Positions 3,130 to 37,249 of a stretch of 37,970 nt of DNA are shown here, piece by piece. The notes beneath the pieces were generated by a model. That model was not told the DNA's origin. It ran no database searches and saw only the letters and a program-made list of their open reading frames with translations. The translations under genes and the position numbers were made by a program. This DNA is from Oscillospiraceae bacterium (lineage in GTDB: Bacteria; Bacillota; Clostridia; Oscillospirales; Ruminococcaceae). Position 1 is the stretch's first letter. Each line of letters starts with the position of its first letter. The stretch lies in assembly GCA_029267825.1 (NCBI GenBank), contig JAJUHO010000006.1, positions 1 through 37,970 on the forward strand, written 5' to 3'.

Positions 3130-3183
3130 TTGACAATAGGAGGTAATTGTGCTATTATTGCAAATGCAAACCATTAGCATTTG
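3130..3183 (+). promoter_or_regulatory. SigA-type promoter with a palindromic operator immediately downstream of the -10
   Basis: TTGACA (3130-3135), 17 nt, TATTAT (3153-3158), then inverted repeat CAAATGC (3161-3167) N9 GCATTTG (3177-3183) over the expected start site. Confidence 0.7.
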
Positions 3184-3198
3184 TGTCGGAGGTTTAAA

Positions 3199-4215
3199 AT
3201 GTCGGGAAAGAATTTAAAAATATTTGACAAGCTTATTTATGGACTTGTTTTGATTTTTGCCGTTTATATGATTTTTTCAATTATGCGTGTAAAGCAAATT
3301 GATTTGTCAGGCTTTGAAAGCTTTAATATGGTTTTTATAAGCATATTAATGCAAGCATTTCCGTTTATGATTCTCGGGATTTTCATTTCGTCGGTTGTGC
3401 ATGTTTTTGTCCCAAATGAAGTGCTTTTAAAGATTTTTCCGACTAAGAACGGGCTTGGCTTTATTGCTGCAATGTTTGCAGGAATTTTGCTGCCGGTTTG
3501 CGAATGCGCCACGGTTCCTTTAATGAAAGGGCTTGTTAAGAAAGGAGTAAAACTTCCGATTGCAATTACTTTTATGCTTTCGGCCCCGATAGTTAATCCG
3601 ATAGCCATAATGTCAACTGTTTATGCTTTTCCGTCCATGCCGTTTGTAGTATTCATAAGACTTGGGCTTGGACTTTTTTGTGCTTTGGTTATAGGTCTTT
3701 TGTTTTTTATTCCGGCACTTGGCGAAAATGTTTTTCAAAATTGCGAAAATGATGATTGTGAAGAGCATTCGTGCTGCTGTGGATGCCATAGTAATAATGA
3801 TAAGAGTATATTTGAAAAAATAAAATTAGTTTTTATACATATAACCGAGGAATTTTTTAGTGCGGGGAAATATCTTATAATAGGGGCTTTTCTTGCTTCG
3901 GCAATGCAAAGATTTGTTCCGGAAGGCATAATTTCCGGATTTTCTTCAAACGAGGCAGTTTCTTTAACTGTAATGATGCTTATGGCATTTTGTTTTTCGG
4001 CATGTTCAACATCGGATGCTTTTATTGCCCGCAGCTTTTCAAACAGTTTTTCGCTGAATTCTTTAATGGGTTTTATGGTATTTGGGCCCATGCTTGATAT
4101 AAAAAATATGTGCATGCTTTTTGATGGGTTTAATAAAAAATTTGTTTTAAAGTTGTGCGCAGTAATTTTTGCTGTTGATTTTTTAGTTTTGATTATTGCA
4201 TCAATTTTTATTTGA
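3199..4215 (+). CDS. Permease of the YcgR/YraQ (DUF318, COG0701) family with a Cys/His-rich cytoplasmic loop
   Basis: ATG at 3199 with RBS ggagg; VCECATVPLMKGLVKKGVKLPIAITFMLSAPIVNPIAI motif; loop NCENDDCEEHSCCCGCHSNN. The track start at 3181 (TTG) is less likely. Confidence 0.85.
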   Translation: MSGKNLKIFDKLIYGLVLIFAVYMIFSIMRVKQIDLSGFESFNMVFISILMQAFPFMILGIFISSVVHVFVPNEVLLKIFPTKNGLGFIAAMFAGILLPVCECATVPLMKGLVKKGVKLPIAITFMLSAPIVNPIAIMSTVYAFPSMPFVVFIRLGLGLFCALVIGLLFFIPALGENVFQNCENDDCEEHSCCCGCHSNNDKSIFEKIKLVFIHITEEFFSAGKYLIIGAFLASAMQRFVPEGIISGFSSNEAVSLTVMMLMAFCFSACSTSDAFIARSFSNSFSLNSLMGFMVFGPMLDIKNMCMLFDGFNKKFVLKLCAVIFAVDFLVLIIASIFI

Positions 4216-4248
4216 TGATGTAAAATTAAGTATATATTTGGAGGATTT

Positions 4249-4995
4249 ATGTCAAAAGCAAAACTTAATTTAAATGTATTGTTGAAAATCCTTTTGCTTT
4301 TAGGCTTCTCAATTTTATTTATTTTTAAAATAGCGAATGGGACGGCAAATAAATATGTAAATCCGCGAATTTTTATTTTTATGGTTTTTTCATCGGTATT
4401 AATGTTAATATGTGCCGGAATTCTTTGTTTTAAGTTGTTTGAAAACAGCAATGAGAAGTTTAAAAAATCACTTTTTATTTATTTTTTCCCTTTGCTTTTG
4501 GCATTTGTATTTCCGGCGGTGTCTTTTAATGCCGCATCTGCTTCGGATTATGGAAATTCAGCATATGTTTCCCAAAAAACAAATACCATCTTAAAAAAGG
4601 AAAATAAACAAGAAGAAACAATAAAAGAAAACAGCGGGAAATTGGTGCTGGATGAAAAAAATTTTTATACGGAAATGTACTCGATTTATTCAAATCCGGA
4701 ACTTTATTTGGGCAAAGAGATAGAAGTTGTTGGCTTTGTTTTTAAAGATGATAATTTTTCTAAAAATCAATTTGTTCCGGCCAGACTTGTTATGGTTTGC
4801 TGTGCGGCTGATATGGTGACTTCCGGGCTTGTTTGCAATTATGATAAGGCATATGAACTTGAAGAAAATTCATGGGTAAAAGTTAGCGGAGTGATTGAAG
4901 AAACAGAAATAAATGGTGAAACTTTGCCTTGTATAATGGCTAAAAGCGTGGAGAGCGTTTCAAAGCCGCAGCAGGAATATATTTATCCATATTAA
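4249..4995 (+). CDS. TIGR03943/DUF1980 family membrane protein (YcgQ-like), partner of the upstream permease
   Basis: N-terminal TM helices and a C-terminal domain containing ARLVMVCCAADMV...WVKVSGVIEE, typical of the permease partner; gene adjacency. Confidence 0.8.
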   Translation: MSKAKLNLNVLLKILLLLGFSILFIFKIANGTANKYVNPRIFIFMVFSSVLMLICAGILCFKLFENSNEKFKKSLFIYFFPLLLAFVFPAVSFNAASASDYGNSAYVSQKTNTILKKENKQEETIKENSGKLVLDEKNFYTEMYSIYSNPELYLGKEIEVVGFVFKDDNFSKNQFVPARLVMVCCAADMVTSGLVCNYDKAYELEENSWVKVSGVIEETEINGETLPCIMAKSVESVSKPQQEYIYPY

Positions 4996-29984: not shown

Positions 29985-32273
29985 ATGATTATGTGCACAA
30001 GATGCAGAAAAAGGCCTGCTGTTGTTTTTATTACAGCTATGCAGGGGAACGAAAAAAAGAATGAGGGACTTTGTTTGGTATGCGCAAAGGAACTCGGTGT
30101 TCCTCAGGTTAGCGAATATATTGAGCAAATGGGCCTGACTGAAAATGATATAGAAGATTTTTCAAATCAAATGATGGATATGAGCTATGGCGATAATTTT
30201 GAAATGGGTGGCGCTGGAACGCTTCCGTCATTTATACAAAATTTGCTTGGAACAAATAATAATATGCCATCAAAACCAAGCCAAGAAAATATGGGGGATT
30301 TCTTTACCGAAAAAAGGGAAGATAAATTCGAAAAGCGCAAAAAGACTGAAAAAGAAAAAAAGCATAAATTCCTTGATACGTATTGCACAAACCTTACAAG
30401 CAGAGCAAGGAATAATGAGCTTGATAGAATAGTAGGGCGTGATAAGGAGATTTCGAGGGTAATACAAATACTTTCGAGGCGTACTAAAAATAATCCTTGC
30501 TTGATAGGTGAACCGGGTGTTGGTAAAACTGCAATAGCTGAGGGCATTGCCCAAAAAATAGCTGCAGGGGAAGTTCCCTTCCACATTGCAGATAAAGAGC
30601 TGTACCTTCTTGACTTGACAGCTCTTGTAGCCGGAACCCAGTTTAGGGGCCAGTTTGAAAGCCGCGTTAAAGGGCTTATAGATGAGGTTAAGGCTGAGGG
30701 AAATATTATACTTTTTATTGATGAGGTTCATAACCTTGTCGGTACGGGCGACAGCGAGGGTTCAATGAATGCCGCAAATATACTTAAACCGGCGCTTTCA
30801 AGGGGCGAGGTTCAGGTTATAGGAGCGACCACATTTAAGGAATATAGAAAGTATATTGAAAAAGATAGTGCGCTTGAAAGGCGTTTCCAGCCGGTTACAA
30901 TAAATGAACCGACCGTTTCTGATACTTTTGAAGTACTTTTTGGTATAAGGGATTATTACGAGAAACACCATAAAGTTAAAATTAAAGATGATACCTTAAA
31001 ACTGTGTGCGATACTTTCAGAAAGATATATAAATGACCGTTTTTTGCCGGATAAGGCAATAGACCTTTTGGATGAGGCTTGCGCCTGCGCCAGCATAAGG
31101 AGCCCTGAACTTGCCGAATTTGAATCTCTTAATGCAAAACTCAAAGAATTGCATGATGATGAGAAAGCAATAGAGGATGCGGATGATGTTCCGGATTTTG
31201 AAAGGCTTGCAAAGGTTAAAGCAGAAATAATCAAAATAAATGCAAAGCTTGAAAAAGTTGAAGAAGCAATTCAGAATGTCTATGTTACAGAAGAGGATAT
31301 TTCAAAGGTAATTGAACTTTGGACGGGAATTCCGGCAAATAAGATAATCCAAAGCGAATATAAGAAAATAGCTTCGCTTGAAGCAAAACTCAAAGAAAGA
31401 ATTATAGGCCAGGATGAAGCGGTTGAACTTGTGGCGAAAGCAATAAAGCGTACGAGGGTTCAACTTGCATCACGTCGCAGGCCGGCATCGTTTATTTTTG
31501 TGGGACCTACCGGAGTTGGAAAAACTGAGCTTGTAAAGGTTCTTGCATCAGAATTGTTTGATAGTACAGAACCGCTTATAAGACTTGACATGACTGAATT
31601 TATGGAAAAACATTCAGTTTCAAGGATTATCGGTTCTCCTCCGGGATATGTCGGTTATGATGACGCGGGACAGCTTACCGAAAAAGTCCGCAGAAGACCA
31701 TATTCAGTCGTGCTGTTTGATGAAATTGAAAAAGCCCATCCGGATGTGATGAATATTTTGCTTCAAATTTTGGATGAGGGCAAGGTTAATGACGCTCAAG
31801 GCAGGAGCATCAGTTTTGAAAATACTGTCATAGCAATGACGTCAAATGCCGGTTCAACTGATAAAACCACGGGAGTGGGATTTAATAAGACACAAGCTGA
31901 GATTTCATCAGAAAAGGCAATAAAGGCGCTTTCTGAGTTTTTGCGTCCGGAATTTCTCAGCAGAATTGATGAAGTAGTAGTGTTTAAGCCGCTTACTTTG
32001 GAAAATTATCAAAAAATAGCTGCCCTTATGCTTGATGAAATGAAAGAACCGCTTTCAGAAAAAGGAATATCGCTTGCATATGATGATGCGGCGCTTGCAA
32101 AAATAGCCGAAAAGTCCTTTGGCGGAAAGTTTGGCGCAAGGGATATAAGAAAGGTTATACGCAAGGAAATTGAGGATAAGGTGGCATCTCTTATCATTGA
32201 TAAAGCCGAAATGGGAATAAGCACTATAAAAGTGACTGTTGTTGATGATAAACTTGAGGTGCTTGCAATTTAA
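29985..32273 (+). CDS. ClpE-like AAA+ ATPase (N-terminal zinc finger, two NBDs)
   Basis: CTRCRKRPAVVF...GLCLVCAKELG; IGEPGVGKTAIAEGIAQKI; VGPTGVGKTELVKVLASELF; no Clp_N repeats before the first NBD. Confidence 0.9.
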   Translation: MIMCTRCRKRPAVVFITAMQGNEKKNEGLCLVCAKELGVPQVSEYIEQMGLTENDIEDFSNQMMDMSYGDNFEMGGAGTLPSFIQNLLGTNNNMPSKPSQENMGDFFTEKREDKFEKRKKTEKEKKHKFLDTYCTNLTSRARNNELDRIVGRDKEISRVIQILSRRTKNNPCLIGEPGVGKTAIAEGIAQKIAAGEVPFHIADKELYLLDLTALVAGTQFRGQFESRVKGLIDEVKAEGNIILFIDEVHNLVGTGDSEGSMNAANILKPALSRGEVQVIGATTFKEYRKYIEKDSALERRFQPVTINEPTVSDTFEVLFGIRDYYEKHHKVKIKDDTLKLCAILSERYINDRFLPDKAIDLLDEACACASIRSPELAEFESLNAKLKELHDDEKAIEDADDVPDFERLAKVKAEIIKINAKLEKVEEAIQNVYVTEEDISKVIELWTGIPANKIIQSEYKKIASLEAKLKERIIGQDEAVELVAKAIKRTRVQLASRRRPASFIFVGPTGVGKTELVKVLASELFDSTEPLIRLDMTEFMEKHSVSRIIGSPPGYVGYDDAGQLTEKVRRRPYSVVLFDEIEKAHPDVMNILLQILDEGKVNDAQGRSISFENTVIAMTSNAGSTDKTTGVGFNKTQAEISSEKAIKALSEFLRPEFLSRIDEVVVFKPLTLENYQKIAALMLDEMKEPLSEKGISLAYDDAALAKIAEKSFGGKFGARDIRKVIRKEIEDKVASLIIDKAEMGISTIKVTVVDDKLEVLAI

Positions 32274-33766: not shown

Positions 33767-33787
33767 TAATTTAAAATGTTTTTAAAT

Positions 33788-33827
33788 AAAAAATCCCATG
33801 ACAAAAATTTGTTCATGGGATTTTTTA
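33788..33827. terminator. Bidirectional terminator between the carboxypeptidase gene (+) and the repeat protein gene (-)
   Basis: aaaaaatcccatgac-N8-gttcatgggatttttt. Confidence 0.85.
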
Positions 33828-33829
33828 TA

Positions 33830-34774
33830 TTATTTGCAAATTCGGCAAGATGAACAATCGGTGCATGATGAACTGCATAAGGTACTTTTGACAATGGAAA
33901 AAGTGCAGTCATTTATTTTAAAAGTTTTTGTTTTGTCAGATGAAATTGTAACACTATCAGCACCAAAATCAATTTTTATTGGAATTAAAATTTCTTCTTC
34001 CGGATTTAATGGAGATGGGATTTTCAATGGAGAGAAAAATACTGGTTTTTCATTTTTAGGATAGACGGCAATAGAGTTTGTTGCACAAAGCATAGAGGAA
34101 ATGGTACCGTCTTCATTAAAGCAAAGAGAATTGCTGTCTGCACAAATTGCTATTGCGTTTGGGTCGTAAGCTTCTAAGGCTCCAATCGGTGTATTTATTT
34201 TTATAGGGAAATCCGGTTCAGTTGATTTTAAAATCCCGCTTTCAAAAAGGGCGAAACCTTTTTTGGTGCTTATTTTTCCTACGGGTGTAATAATATCTAT
34301 TTTTTCGCCGGGAAACAGGGTAAGACTTTTTATTGTTCCACTGCGGTAAAAGCATATGCCATTTACCATTGCCGTAAAATCAGCAAAATCAAAGCTGAAA
34401 TTTAGGGGGATATTAAAATTCCTTTCATCATCTTCTGACCAATATCCGCTTATTTTCCCATTTGTCGGGAAAACCCGTTTTACTTCGCCTGTGTTATAAA
34501 AAGTCACAAGTTCCGCCGGCATTTCGCCGATTGGAGTTAAAATTTCGGTCTGATTTTCAAGCGATACTGCTTTTAAATTGCCATCCGGGTAAAAAGATAT
34601 TGATTTTGTATATTTTCTGCGCAGGGTTTCTTCACCATATTGCGGTATAAGAGGTCCGCATTCGGTAAATACAATATTTTCTTTATTAAGAATGCATTCT
34701 TTTAATGTTCCGTCTGGATAATATTCGGCTCTTTCAATTCCGTCAAGCGTTCCGAATTTTGTTTTTGCTTCCAT
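33830..34774 (-). CDS. Uncharacterised repeat protein (YwqK/MORN-like strand repeats) with C-terminal CX3CX2CX2CX2C tail; cotranscribed with the AnfO-like gene
   Basis: About six degenerate repeats of the type xFYxxGxxKs...xTPIGxx (YYPDGTLKE, FYPDGNLKA, FYNTGEVKR, FYRSGTIKS, LFESGILKS, FNEDGTISS) and terminal CSSSCTDCSSCRICK. Confidence 0.8.
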   Translation of the reverse strand: MEAKTKFGTLDGIERAEYYPDGTLKECILNKENIVFTECGPLIPQYGEETLRRKYTKSISFYPDGNLKAVSLENQTEILTPIGEMPAELVTFYNTGEVKRVFPTNGKISGYWSEDDERNFNIPLNFSFDFADFTAMVNGICFYRSGTIKSLTLFPGEKIDIITPVGKISTKKGFALFESGILKSTEPDFPIKINTPIGALEAYDPNAIAICADSNSLCFNEDGTISSMLCATNSIAVYPKNEKPVFFSPLKIPSPLNPEEEILIPIKIDFGADSVTISSDKTKTFKINDCTFSIVKSTLCSSSCTDCSSCRICK

Positions 34775-35386
34775 TTAAATCGGCTCCTTTCCGCATAATT
34801 TATTTTTAATGACTGCAACAGTTTTTCCGTCTTGTTTTTTTAAGGTTATATCATACCCAAATTCATTAATCCAAGGCGGCAAATGGGTGCATACAAGTTC
34901 AAGTTCCCAAAATGGTGTTTCTTTAAAAAATTTCCGCAAAGCTTTTTTTGATGATATTTCAGGAAAATTTTCCTGCAACATGGCAAGGTCAAAATAATAT
35001 TTTCCGGGAATTGAGGTTTCAATAGGCTTTTGCGGAATTTTATTATTTTCGTCATTTGACCGAATATCTTCAATTATTCCGTCAAGAGAAGCGTCGTTTA
35101 ATTCGGATATAGAAAAAATATGGAATCCAAGTGAATCAAATACAGTAAATGGAAGTCCTGTAATTTCTATTCCTGCTATTATTTTGCATTTGCCAAGTTT
35201 CTTTGAAAGAGAAAGCAGTTCGCTTCTTAAAGAAGCAATACCGCTTTTGTTATTGAAATTTATAGGCAATTCGCTTGAAACTGCCCAGCCGTTTTCATCC
35301 TTTGACATTACAATGATATGACTCGACTCAAAAAATGAATTTGATACACTATAATCTTTCATTATGATTGCGATGCTTTCGTCCAT
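34775..35386 (-). CDS. AnfO-family nitrogenase-associated protein
   Basis: GLPFTVFDSLGFHIFSI; PGKYYFDLAMLQENFPEISSKKALRKFF; FWELELVCTHLPPWINEFGYDI resembles AnfO (PF09582) as recalled; located next to nifH. Confidence 0.65.
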   Translation of the reverse strand: MDESIAIIMKDYSVSNSFFESSHIIVMSKDENGWAVSSELPINFNNKSGIASLRSELLSLSKKLGKCKIIAGIEITGLPFTVFDSLGFHIFSISELNDASLDGIIEDIRSNDENNKIPQKPIETSIPGKYYFDLAMLQENFPEISSKKALRKFFKETPFWELELVCTHLPPWINEFGYDITLKKQDGKTVAVIKNKLCGKEPI

Positions 35387-35537
35387 AATCGCACCCTCCT
35401 TTATTATGTTTTAGTATATATCTTGCTTTAAATAAGTGTCAAGAGATTTTGGTAGAAAAATGTTTTTGCAAGTTTAATATATATAAATTGCATAAAATGC
35501 TTTGCCTAAAATTGCAATTTATCTAAAAACCAATGTA

Positions 35538-35666: not shown

Positions 35667-36509
<843 letters not shown>

Positions 36510-36528: not shown

Positions 36529-36855
36529 ATGTTGCTTGTCAGAGCCATTATAAGACCTGAAAAAACCGGAATAGTTATGTCAGAGCTTCTTGCGGCCGGA
36601 TTTCCTGCAATAACCAAAATGGATGTTTACGGACGTGGAAAGCAAAAGGGGATTACAGTAGGAGATATTCATTATGACGAAATACCAAAGGAAATGCTCT
36701 TAATTGTAGTAAATGATGATGATAAAGACGATGTCGTAAAAGTCATCATGAGAACAGCCCGTACCGCTCCAAACGGCACATACGGCGATGGAAGGATTTT
36801 TATAAGCCCCGTTGAGGAGGCATATACAATCAGCACAGGCAAAAAAGGCTTGTAA
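36529..36855 (+). CDS. nifI1: PII-family nitrogen regulator NifI1
   Basis: MLLVRAIIRPEKTGIVMSELLAAGFPAITKMDVYGRGKQKGI; GDGRIFISPVEEAYTISTG; located between nifH and nifD. Confidence 0.93.
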   Translation: MLLVRAIIRPEKTGIVMSELLAAGFPAITKMDVYGRGKQKGITVGDIHYDEIPKEMLLIVVNDDDKDDVVKVIMRTARTAPNGTYGDGRIFISPVEEAYTISTGKKGL

Positions 36856-36868
36856 GGGGGGATTTTTA

Positions 36869-37249
36869 ATGAAAGAGATAATGGCTATAATAAGGGTTAA
36901 CATGGTAAATCCGACCAAAGAAGCCCTTGCCAAAGCCGGTTTTCCGGCGCTTTCCTGCCGCAAATGTCTTGGCAGAGGGAAAAAAGGCATTGACCCGGCA
37001 GTGCTTCAAGCCGTTGTAGATTCAGGTGAAATTCCCGCGAATTCAGTTGGCGAACATATGACAGAAACGCAAAGGCTTATTGCCAAAAGATTTTTTACAA
37101 TAATAGTTGATGATGATAAAGTTGATTTGGCGGTAAAAACGATTATTGATACAAATCAAACCGGAAATCCGGGCGACGGAAAGATTTTTATATTGCCTGT
37201 ATGCGAAGCATATACCGTAAGAACCGGCGAACGCAACGATCAGGTTTGA
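36869..37249 (+). CDS. nifI2: PII-family nitrogen regulator NifI2
   Basis: MKEIMAIIRVNMVNPTKEALAKAGFPALSCRKCLGRGKKG; GDGKIFILPVCEAYTVRTGE. Start moved to ATG 36869 with an aaggggg RBS. Confidence 0.93.
   Translation: MKEIMAIIRVNMVNPTKEALAKAGFPALSCRKCLGRGKKGIDPAVLQAVVDSGEIPANSVGEHMTETQRLIAKRFFTIIVDDDKVDLAVKTIIDTNQTGNPGDGKIFILPVCEAYTVRTGERNDQV

Follow-up and report, generated by a model that had tools for sequence, protein, structure and literature searches.

A probable and so far overlooked component of nitrogenase assembly: a repeat protein with a cysteine-rich tail, encoded beside AnfO-family genes

The anfO-RP locus

The window analyzed here is a 37,970-nucleotide stretch of an Oscillospiraceae bacterium genome (assembly GCA_029267825.1, contig JAJUHO010000006.1). 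One of its genes encodes a 314-residue repeat protein that has no name, and for which we use the label RP. The stop codon (TAA) of an AnfO-family gene abuts the ATG of the RP gene with a gap of zero, as a preliminary description of this DNA had reported along with the RP reading frame itself. The resulting anfO-RP operon is divergent from nifH-nifI1-nifI2-nifD (35,691 onward), and the 3′ end of RP meets a hairpin. The features of the locus are collected in Table 1. A promoter-like sequence lies 5′ of the operon and may be its promoter, in a region where the number of such sites does not exceed what is expected by chance.

Table 1. Features of the anfO-RP locus and of the adjoining nif genes, with positions in the window.
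Feature	Position	Strand	Basis
Hairpin that probably terminates both RP and a convergent D-Ala-D-Ala carboxypeptidase gene	33786..33828	.	-21 kcal/mol, z -6.45
RP, repeat protein with Cys-rich tail	33830..34774	-	314-aa ORF, ATG start
C-terminal Cys tail CSSSCTDCSSCRICK, residues 300-314, predicted disordered	33833..33877	-	pLDDT < 50
Six degenerate MORN_2/YwqK-like repeats, predicted all-beta body (residues 18-226)	34097..34723	-	Motif count and AlphaFold2
AnfO-family gene, 203 aa, upstream partner of RP	34775..35386	-	PF09582, E = 1.6e-40
C-x-H-x-P-P-W motif of the AnfO-like protein (C166, H168)	34871..34891	-	H168 invariant in 20 aligned sequences
Promoter-like TTGACA-18-TATACT, 5′ of anfO-RP	35413..35442	-	11/12 matches
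nifH, divergent from anfO-RP	35691..36509	+	TIGR01287, 465 bits, above cut-off
nifI1 (P-II)	36529..36855	+	PF00543
nifI2 (P-II)	36869..37249	+	PF00543; start inferred from the L002 orthologue
nifD, cut by the contig end	37257..37970	+	Open ORF matching the complete nifD of L002

RP is under purifying selection, with a dN/dS of 0.08 against its closest relative (locus L002). None of the NCBIfam models matches it, and its score against the Pfam MORN_2 family (PF07661), 24 bits, is under the gathering cut-off of 29.6, in keeping with the preliminary description, which had recognized no named family for it. A tblastn search of plasmids with RP and an anf-linked AnfO as queries gave no matches. A literature search returned no paper on the gene, and AnfO and RP-like genes are both missing from the gene table of a catalogue that in 2026 listed 93 nitrogen-fixation genes (PMC12903952). 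The RP family looks undescribed in the literature searched.

The window holds other genes of some interest. The FeoA-FeoB ferrous iron uptake genes (571-2903) lie on the same contig about 33 kb upstream. An ArsP_1 (DUF318-type) permease gene is followed by one for a protein with a DUF1980 C-terminal domain (3181-4995), a pair that recurs. At 29985-32273 there is a ClpC-like AAA+ protein in which an N-terminal, zinc-finger-like CxxC...CxxC segment (MIMCTRCRKRPAVVFI...CLVCAKELG) replaces the usual Clp N-domain.

A repeat body and a flexible cysteine tail

The motif F-Y-x-x-G-x-[ILV]-K occurs six times in RP, at residues 18, 61, 92, 142, 176, and 219. The preliminary description had spoken of about six degenerate repeats, and the count stands well clear of that in 2000 shuffled sequences (mean 0.22, maximum 2), with the motif having been fitted to RP. 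Homologs from other genera carry 3-5 repeats of the same pattern. The AlphaFold2 model, which was built from four sequences only, predicts an all-beta body with a pLDDT of 83.3 and a pTM of 0.78.

What kind of fold is it? Weak MORN_2 matches are found in 6 of 10 RP members, with a best E-value of 1.2e-5. When the RP model is compared to a viral structure library, the top named matches are MORN-repeat and YwqK proteins with E-values from 9e-5 to 1.3e-3, for which the match probability is mostly 0.9-1.0 and the TM-scores are low (0.1-0.3). A fold search of the PDB gave no match at E < 1e-3, and a search of solved structures by sequence found no relative. As a result of those low TM-scores and of the lack of a PDB match at that threshold, we describe RP as MORN/YwqK-like only. 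A beta-repeat fold resembling that of MORN/YwqK proteins is supported at the level of the predicted fold, and the label denotes that likeness and not a proven homology. Of the two scaffolds that had been proposed for RP, the YwqK/MORN-like one holds up at this level, and a classic beta-solenoid is not indicated, given the PDB search. RP has the repeat motif and the predicted beta fold in common with MORN_2/YwqK-type proteins, and it differs from them by the sub-cut-off score, by conserved non-repeat residues of its own, by the Cys tail, and by being limited, among the surveyed genomes, to those with nitrogenase.

The C-terminus of RP in the window reads CX3CX2CX2CX2C, just as the preliminary description had it. 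Across the family, 25 of 27 RP proteins carry CxxC in the tail and 20 of 27 carry CxxCxxC, while the residues around the cysteines vary. The number of tail cysteines ranges from 2 up to 5 in the proteins that have a tail (or six with a Cys that precedes them), and a cysteine in the body, C27, is kept in 22/27. The two RPs without CxxC are those of loci L004 and L063. The other frames of L004 encode no frameshifted Cys tail, and the L063 protein has a tail-less end followed by two stops. In genomes G008 and G033, three of the four RP copies have a single CxxC and the fourth has CX3CX2C. Because the tails of G008 and G033 are cut down and two other members are tail-less, a four-Cys [4Fe-4S] site within one protein is not, judging by these tails, a family-wide property of RP. 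What the family conserves is thus a pair of thiols near the end of a flexible arm, in many members with further cysteines, and not the precise motif of the window protein; of the Cys tail noted earlier, the terminal CxxC is widely kept, and the full multi-Cys form is not universal. Binding of a metal or of an Fe-S cluster by the tail is plausible.

The AnfO-family partner

The partner of RP in the window is a member of PF09582, with 138.9 bits against a cut-off of 30.3, and it shows no detectable similarity to RP. It scores under the cut-off of the NCBIfam AnfO equivalog, TIGR02940 (74.7 vs. 129.15 bits), and the anfHDGK-linked AnfO of locus L054 is likewise below it, at 112.8 bits. In A. vinelandii, AnfO is a tethered maturation factor that captures FeMo-co or FeV-co (PMC11938142, PMC9310841). 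Its N-domain tethers it to the immature (apo-)FeFe protein, and its C-domain captures the cofactor, for which His203 is essential (PMC11938142). The C-x-H-x-P-P-W motif of the window protein, with its invariant His, is kept in the clostridial AnfO proteins, and besides the 20 aligned sequences it is visible in four further ones. Its H168 is probably equivalent to His203, going by the C-x-H spacing (C201/H203, PMC11938142) and not by an alignment to the A. vinelandii protein.

The model of the window AnfO is modest (pLDDT 74.7, pTM 0.47) and has a NifX/NafY-like domain. It matches NifX in the NifEN-NifX complex, the NafY core, and other structures of the FeMo-co family with probabilities of 0.93-1.0 and E-values between 3e-3 and 4e-2.

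In the sampled genomes, RP occurs only together with nitrogenase

We surveyed 295 genomes of the order, 391 of the class, and 200 of the phylum, in addition to the L002-L004 loci, so that one phylum is sampled. Counting the window genome once, RP is found in 23 genomes from at least 14 genera, and in the sampled genomes of this phylum all 23 have a nifH above the curated cut-off. Full-length RP occurs in 5 of the 295 genomes of the order survey, all of them within the 10 that have nifH (p = 1.4e-8), and in 14 of the 391 genomes of the class survey, all within the 43 that have nifH at E < 1e-105 (p = 4.4e-15); both hypergeometric p-values ignore shared ancestry. The phylum survey added two further RP genomes, both with nifH, and the genomes behind L002-L004 have it as well. 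The surveys also covered many genomes without nifH. As the preliminary description had pointed out, homologs spread widely among such genomes and never adjoining nif/anf genes would have spoken against the link with nitrogenase, and no such pattern was seen. Within the sampled genomes, RP is found only in nitrogen-fixing bacteria.

The reciprocal is not true. RP is present in 18 of 52 nifH-bearing genomes, and since about two thirds of them are without it, RP is not generally required in diazotrophs.

One weak match, in genome G027 (E = 5e-4, 66 aa, with internal stops), was rejected as generic repeat similarity; the best nifH-like sequence of that genome is far below the cut-off.

RP and AnfO go together

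We mapped 27 RP loci, 21 of which are in nif, anf, or vnf blocks. Likewise in 21/27 loci, anfO is directly beside RP, tightly spaced or overlapping, and where the two adjoin the order is nearly always anfO and then RP. RP is not adjacent to anfO in the other 6/27. The two proteins are read through in frame in only two sequences.

The pairing also holds at the level of whole genomes. Among the 52 nifH-bearing genomes, 16 have both RP and AnfO, 2 have RP only, 1 has AnfO only, and 33 have neither, so that presence agrees in 49/52 (Fisher p = 2.4e-10). Both genes are present on different contigs in G616, G408, and G352, and no AnfO was found in the RP-bearing genomes G228 and G468. Four genomes (G008, G033, G383, and G577) have two copies of each. 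Pairwise distances of RP and AnfO are correlated with r = 0.87, a value not reached in any of 2000 permutations, and part of this correlation must be common species history. The association of RP with nitrogenase and with AnfO is well supported. The suggestion that RP is a nitrogenase accessory factor has gained strong support from the nifH genes of all RP genomes, the nif/anf/vnf blocks, and the co-occurrence with AnfO.

Other genes recur near RP. At L013, RP overlaps modA of a co-directional modABC operon (RP-modABC), and L046 has modA-modB-modC-RP in one direction, away from nif genes. Genes with HTH_17 and PBP_like (PF12727) domains are found near AnfO-RP at L004 (3000-3965), L045, and L054 (18679-19665), and these are possibly metal-oxyanion sensors. 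Proteins of about 800-900 residues with a NifK/NifN-like N-terminus are encoded after a NifE-like gene at L013 (1-2398), L015 (13182-15905), and L052 (15006-17720), which suggests NifN-B fusions in clostridial clusters.

Which nitrogenase does RP accompany?

AnfO has been described for the Fe-only enzyme. The AnfO of the window, on the other hand, adjoins nifHDK; in this genome (G000) we detect no AnfG, and a single nifH at E < 1e-105. The AnfG/VnfG delta subunit is detectable in four of the 18 RP genomes, with none detected in the other 14, and it therefore appears that in most RP genomes, including that of the window, AnfO and RP accompany the Mo nitrogenase only.

RP is also found with alternative nitrogenases. 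At L054, RP and AnfO follow an anfHDGK cluster whose AnfG matches the equivalog model, and at L017, RP lies beside a gene for a VnfG-like subunit. G008 and G033 belong to two genera, yet their vnf-linked RPs form one cluster with support of 100/100, separate from the nif-linked RPs that these genomes also have; in the two genera, the copies thus sort by isozyme and not by genome.

Some further observations concern the isozymes. Most genomes with AnfO-family genes have no AnfG/VnfG that we can detect and are apparently Mo-only diazotrophs, although the published role of AnfO is that of a fidelity factor for the Fe-only enzyme. The vnf-like block of G577 (L045 and contig C18) has nifI1/nifI2 homologs and a VnfG-like subunit, and AnfO-RP is divergent from the nifH of the block. 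Contig C2 of the same genome has a further alternative-type nifH/AnfG locus.

A proposed role for RP, and the alternatives

We favor, with some confidence, the reading that RP is a nitrogenase maturation factor partnered with AnfO, and that its flexible tail handles a metal or a cofactor. RP would act together with the AnfO-family protein of the same operon. Its beta-repeat body would be a docking scaffold for AnfO, for the cofactor-free NifDK, or for both, a binding that we infer. The tail, whether CxxC or longer, would give thiolate ligands for a metal or an Fe-S-containing cofactor, and these would hold or pass on a cofactor that is moving into, or is being kept out of, the cognate nitrogenase. 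In RP-bearing bacteria, AnfO and RP would then be the two halves of one module. The role proposed for the pair, cofactor carrying and binding to apo-nitrogenase, is the one that NafY and NifX have. RP is different in that it is predicted to be an all-beta repeat protein without a match to either of them, Pfam scans of RP and its homologs having found no Nitro_FeMo-Co (PF02579) domain, and in that its candidate ligands are the tail cysteines, whereas the ligand in NafY and NifX is a His (PMC11938142).

A more ambitious version of this proposal, which we put forward tentatively, has AnfO and RP as a hitherto unrecognized, isozyme-specific module for cofactor sorting or delivery that would also serve the Mo nitrogenase of anaerobic Firmicutes without alternative nitrogenases. 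RP would then be a new class of carrier, with a MORN-type scaffold and a swinging Cys tail.

RP could instead donate or handle Mo, as an analogue of NifQ whose Cys tail gives Mo or a Mo-Fe-S species to NifEN. Like NifQ, RP would be a Cys-based accessory protein linked to Mo supply: at two loci it stands next to genes for molybdate transport and in the same direction, it has an HTH-PBP_like gene nearby in three (L004, L045, and L054), and a search of the 18 RP genomes detected no NifQ, an absence that is not proved since the controls gave no signal. But Mo transport genes are common near nif genes anyway, Fe-only and V-type loci, which have no need of a Mo donor, have dedicated RP copies too, and Pfam scans of RP and its homologs found no NifQ (PF04891) domain, the predicted fold being different. 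We consider a Mo donor unlikely. We give a similarly low standing to RP being a structural chaperone, an anti-aggregation partner of AnfO or of apo-NifDK in which the tail binds Zn or serves as a redox switch and carries no cofactor. The repeat scaffold would suit that function, two members dispense with the tail, and the tails with CxxC only are too short for an Fe-S site within a single protein; against it, keeping the tail cysteines in nearly all members amid residues that vary favors their use as ligands.

The position of RP, which in most cases lies near nifH-nifI1-nifI2 or is divergent from it, together with the HTH-PBP_like genes at three loci, could also be that of a regulator, one that senses the status of a metal or cofactor and adjusts nitrogenase expression or activity. 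We find this quite improbable, as domain scans of RP found no DNA-binding or nucleotide-binding domain, and the strongest association of RP is with AnfO, which is a maturation factor. Finally, the weak similarity to MORN_2 might mean that RP is a generic protein of the MORN/YwqK type, a passenger that in one lineage came by chance to lie near nif genes. Very little speaks for it: nifH is there in every RP genome, the linkage is seen repeatedly, with different gene orders, in at least 14 genera, the AnfO copy number matches that of RP in most genomes, and the low dN/dS is that of a constrained protein.

Implications

The known components of nitrogenase maturation have been worked out mostly in Azotobacter. 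The RP family is probably one more component of this assembly machinery, one that has gone unnoticed. For AnfO, it is a surprise that AnfO-RP occurs chiefly in genomes in which no alternative nitrogenase is detected, and the 14 of 18 RP genomes without a detectable AnfG/VnfG call into question that AnfO is solely a fidelity factor of the Fe-only nitrogenase. A helper gene that has been missed could be of consequence when clostridial gene sets are used to engineer nitrogenase. And for anaerobic diazotrophs, RP, with its AnfO partner and its separate copies for separate isozymes, is a directly testable candidate for the routing of cofactors.
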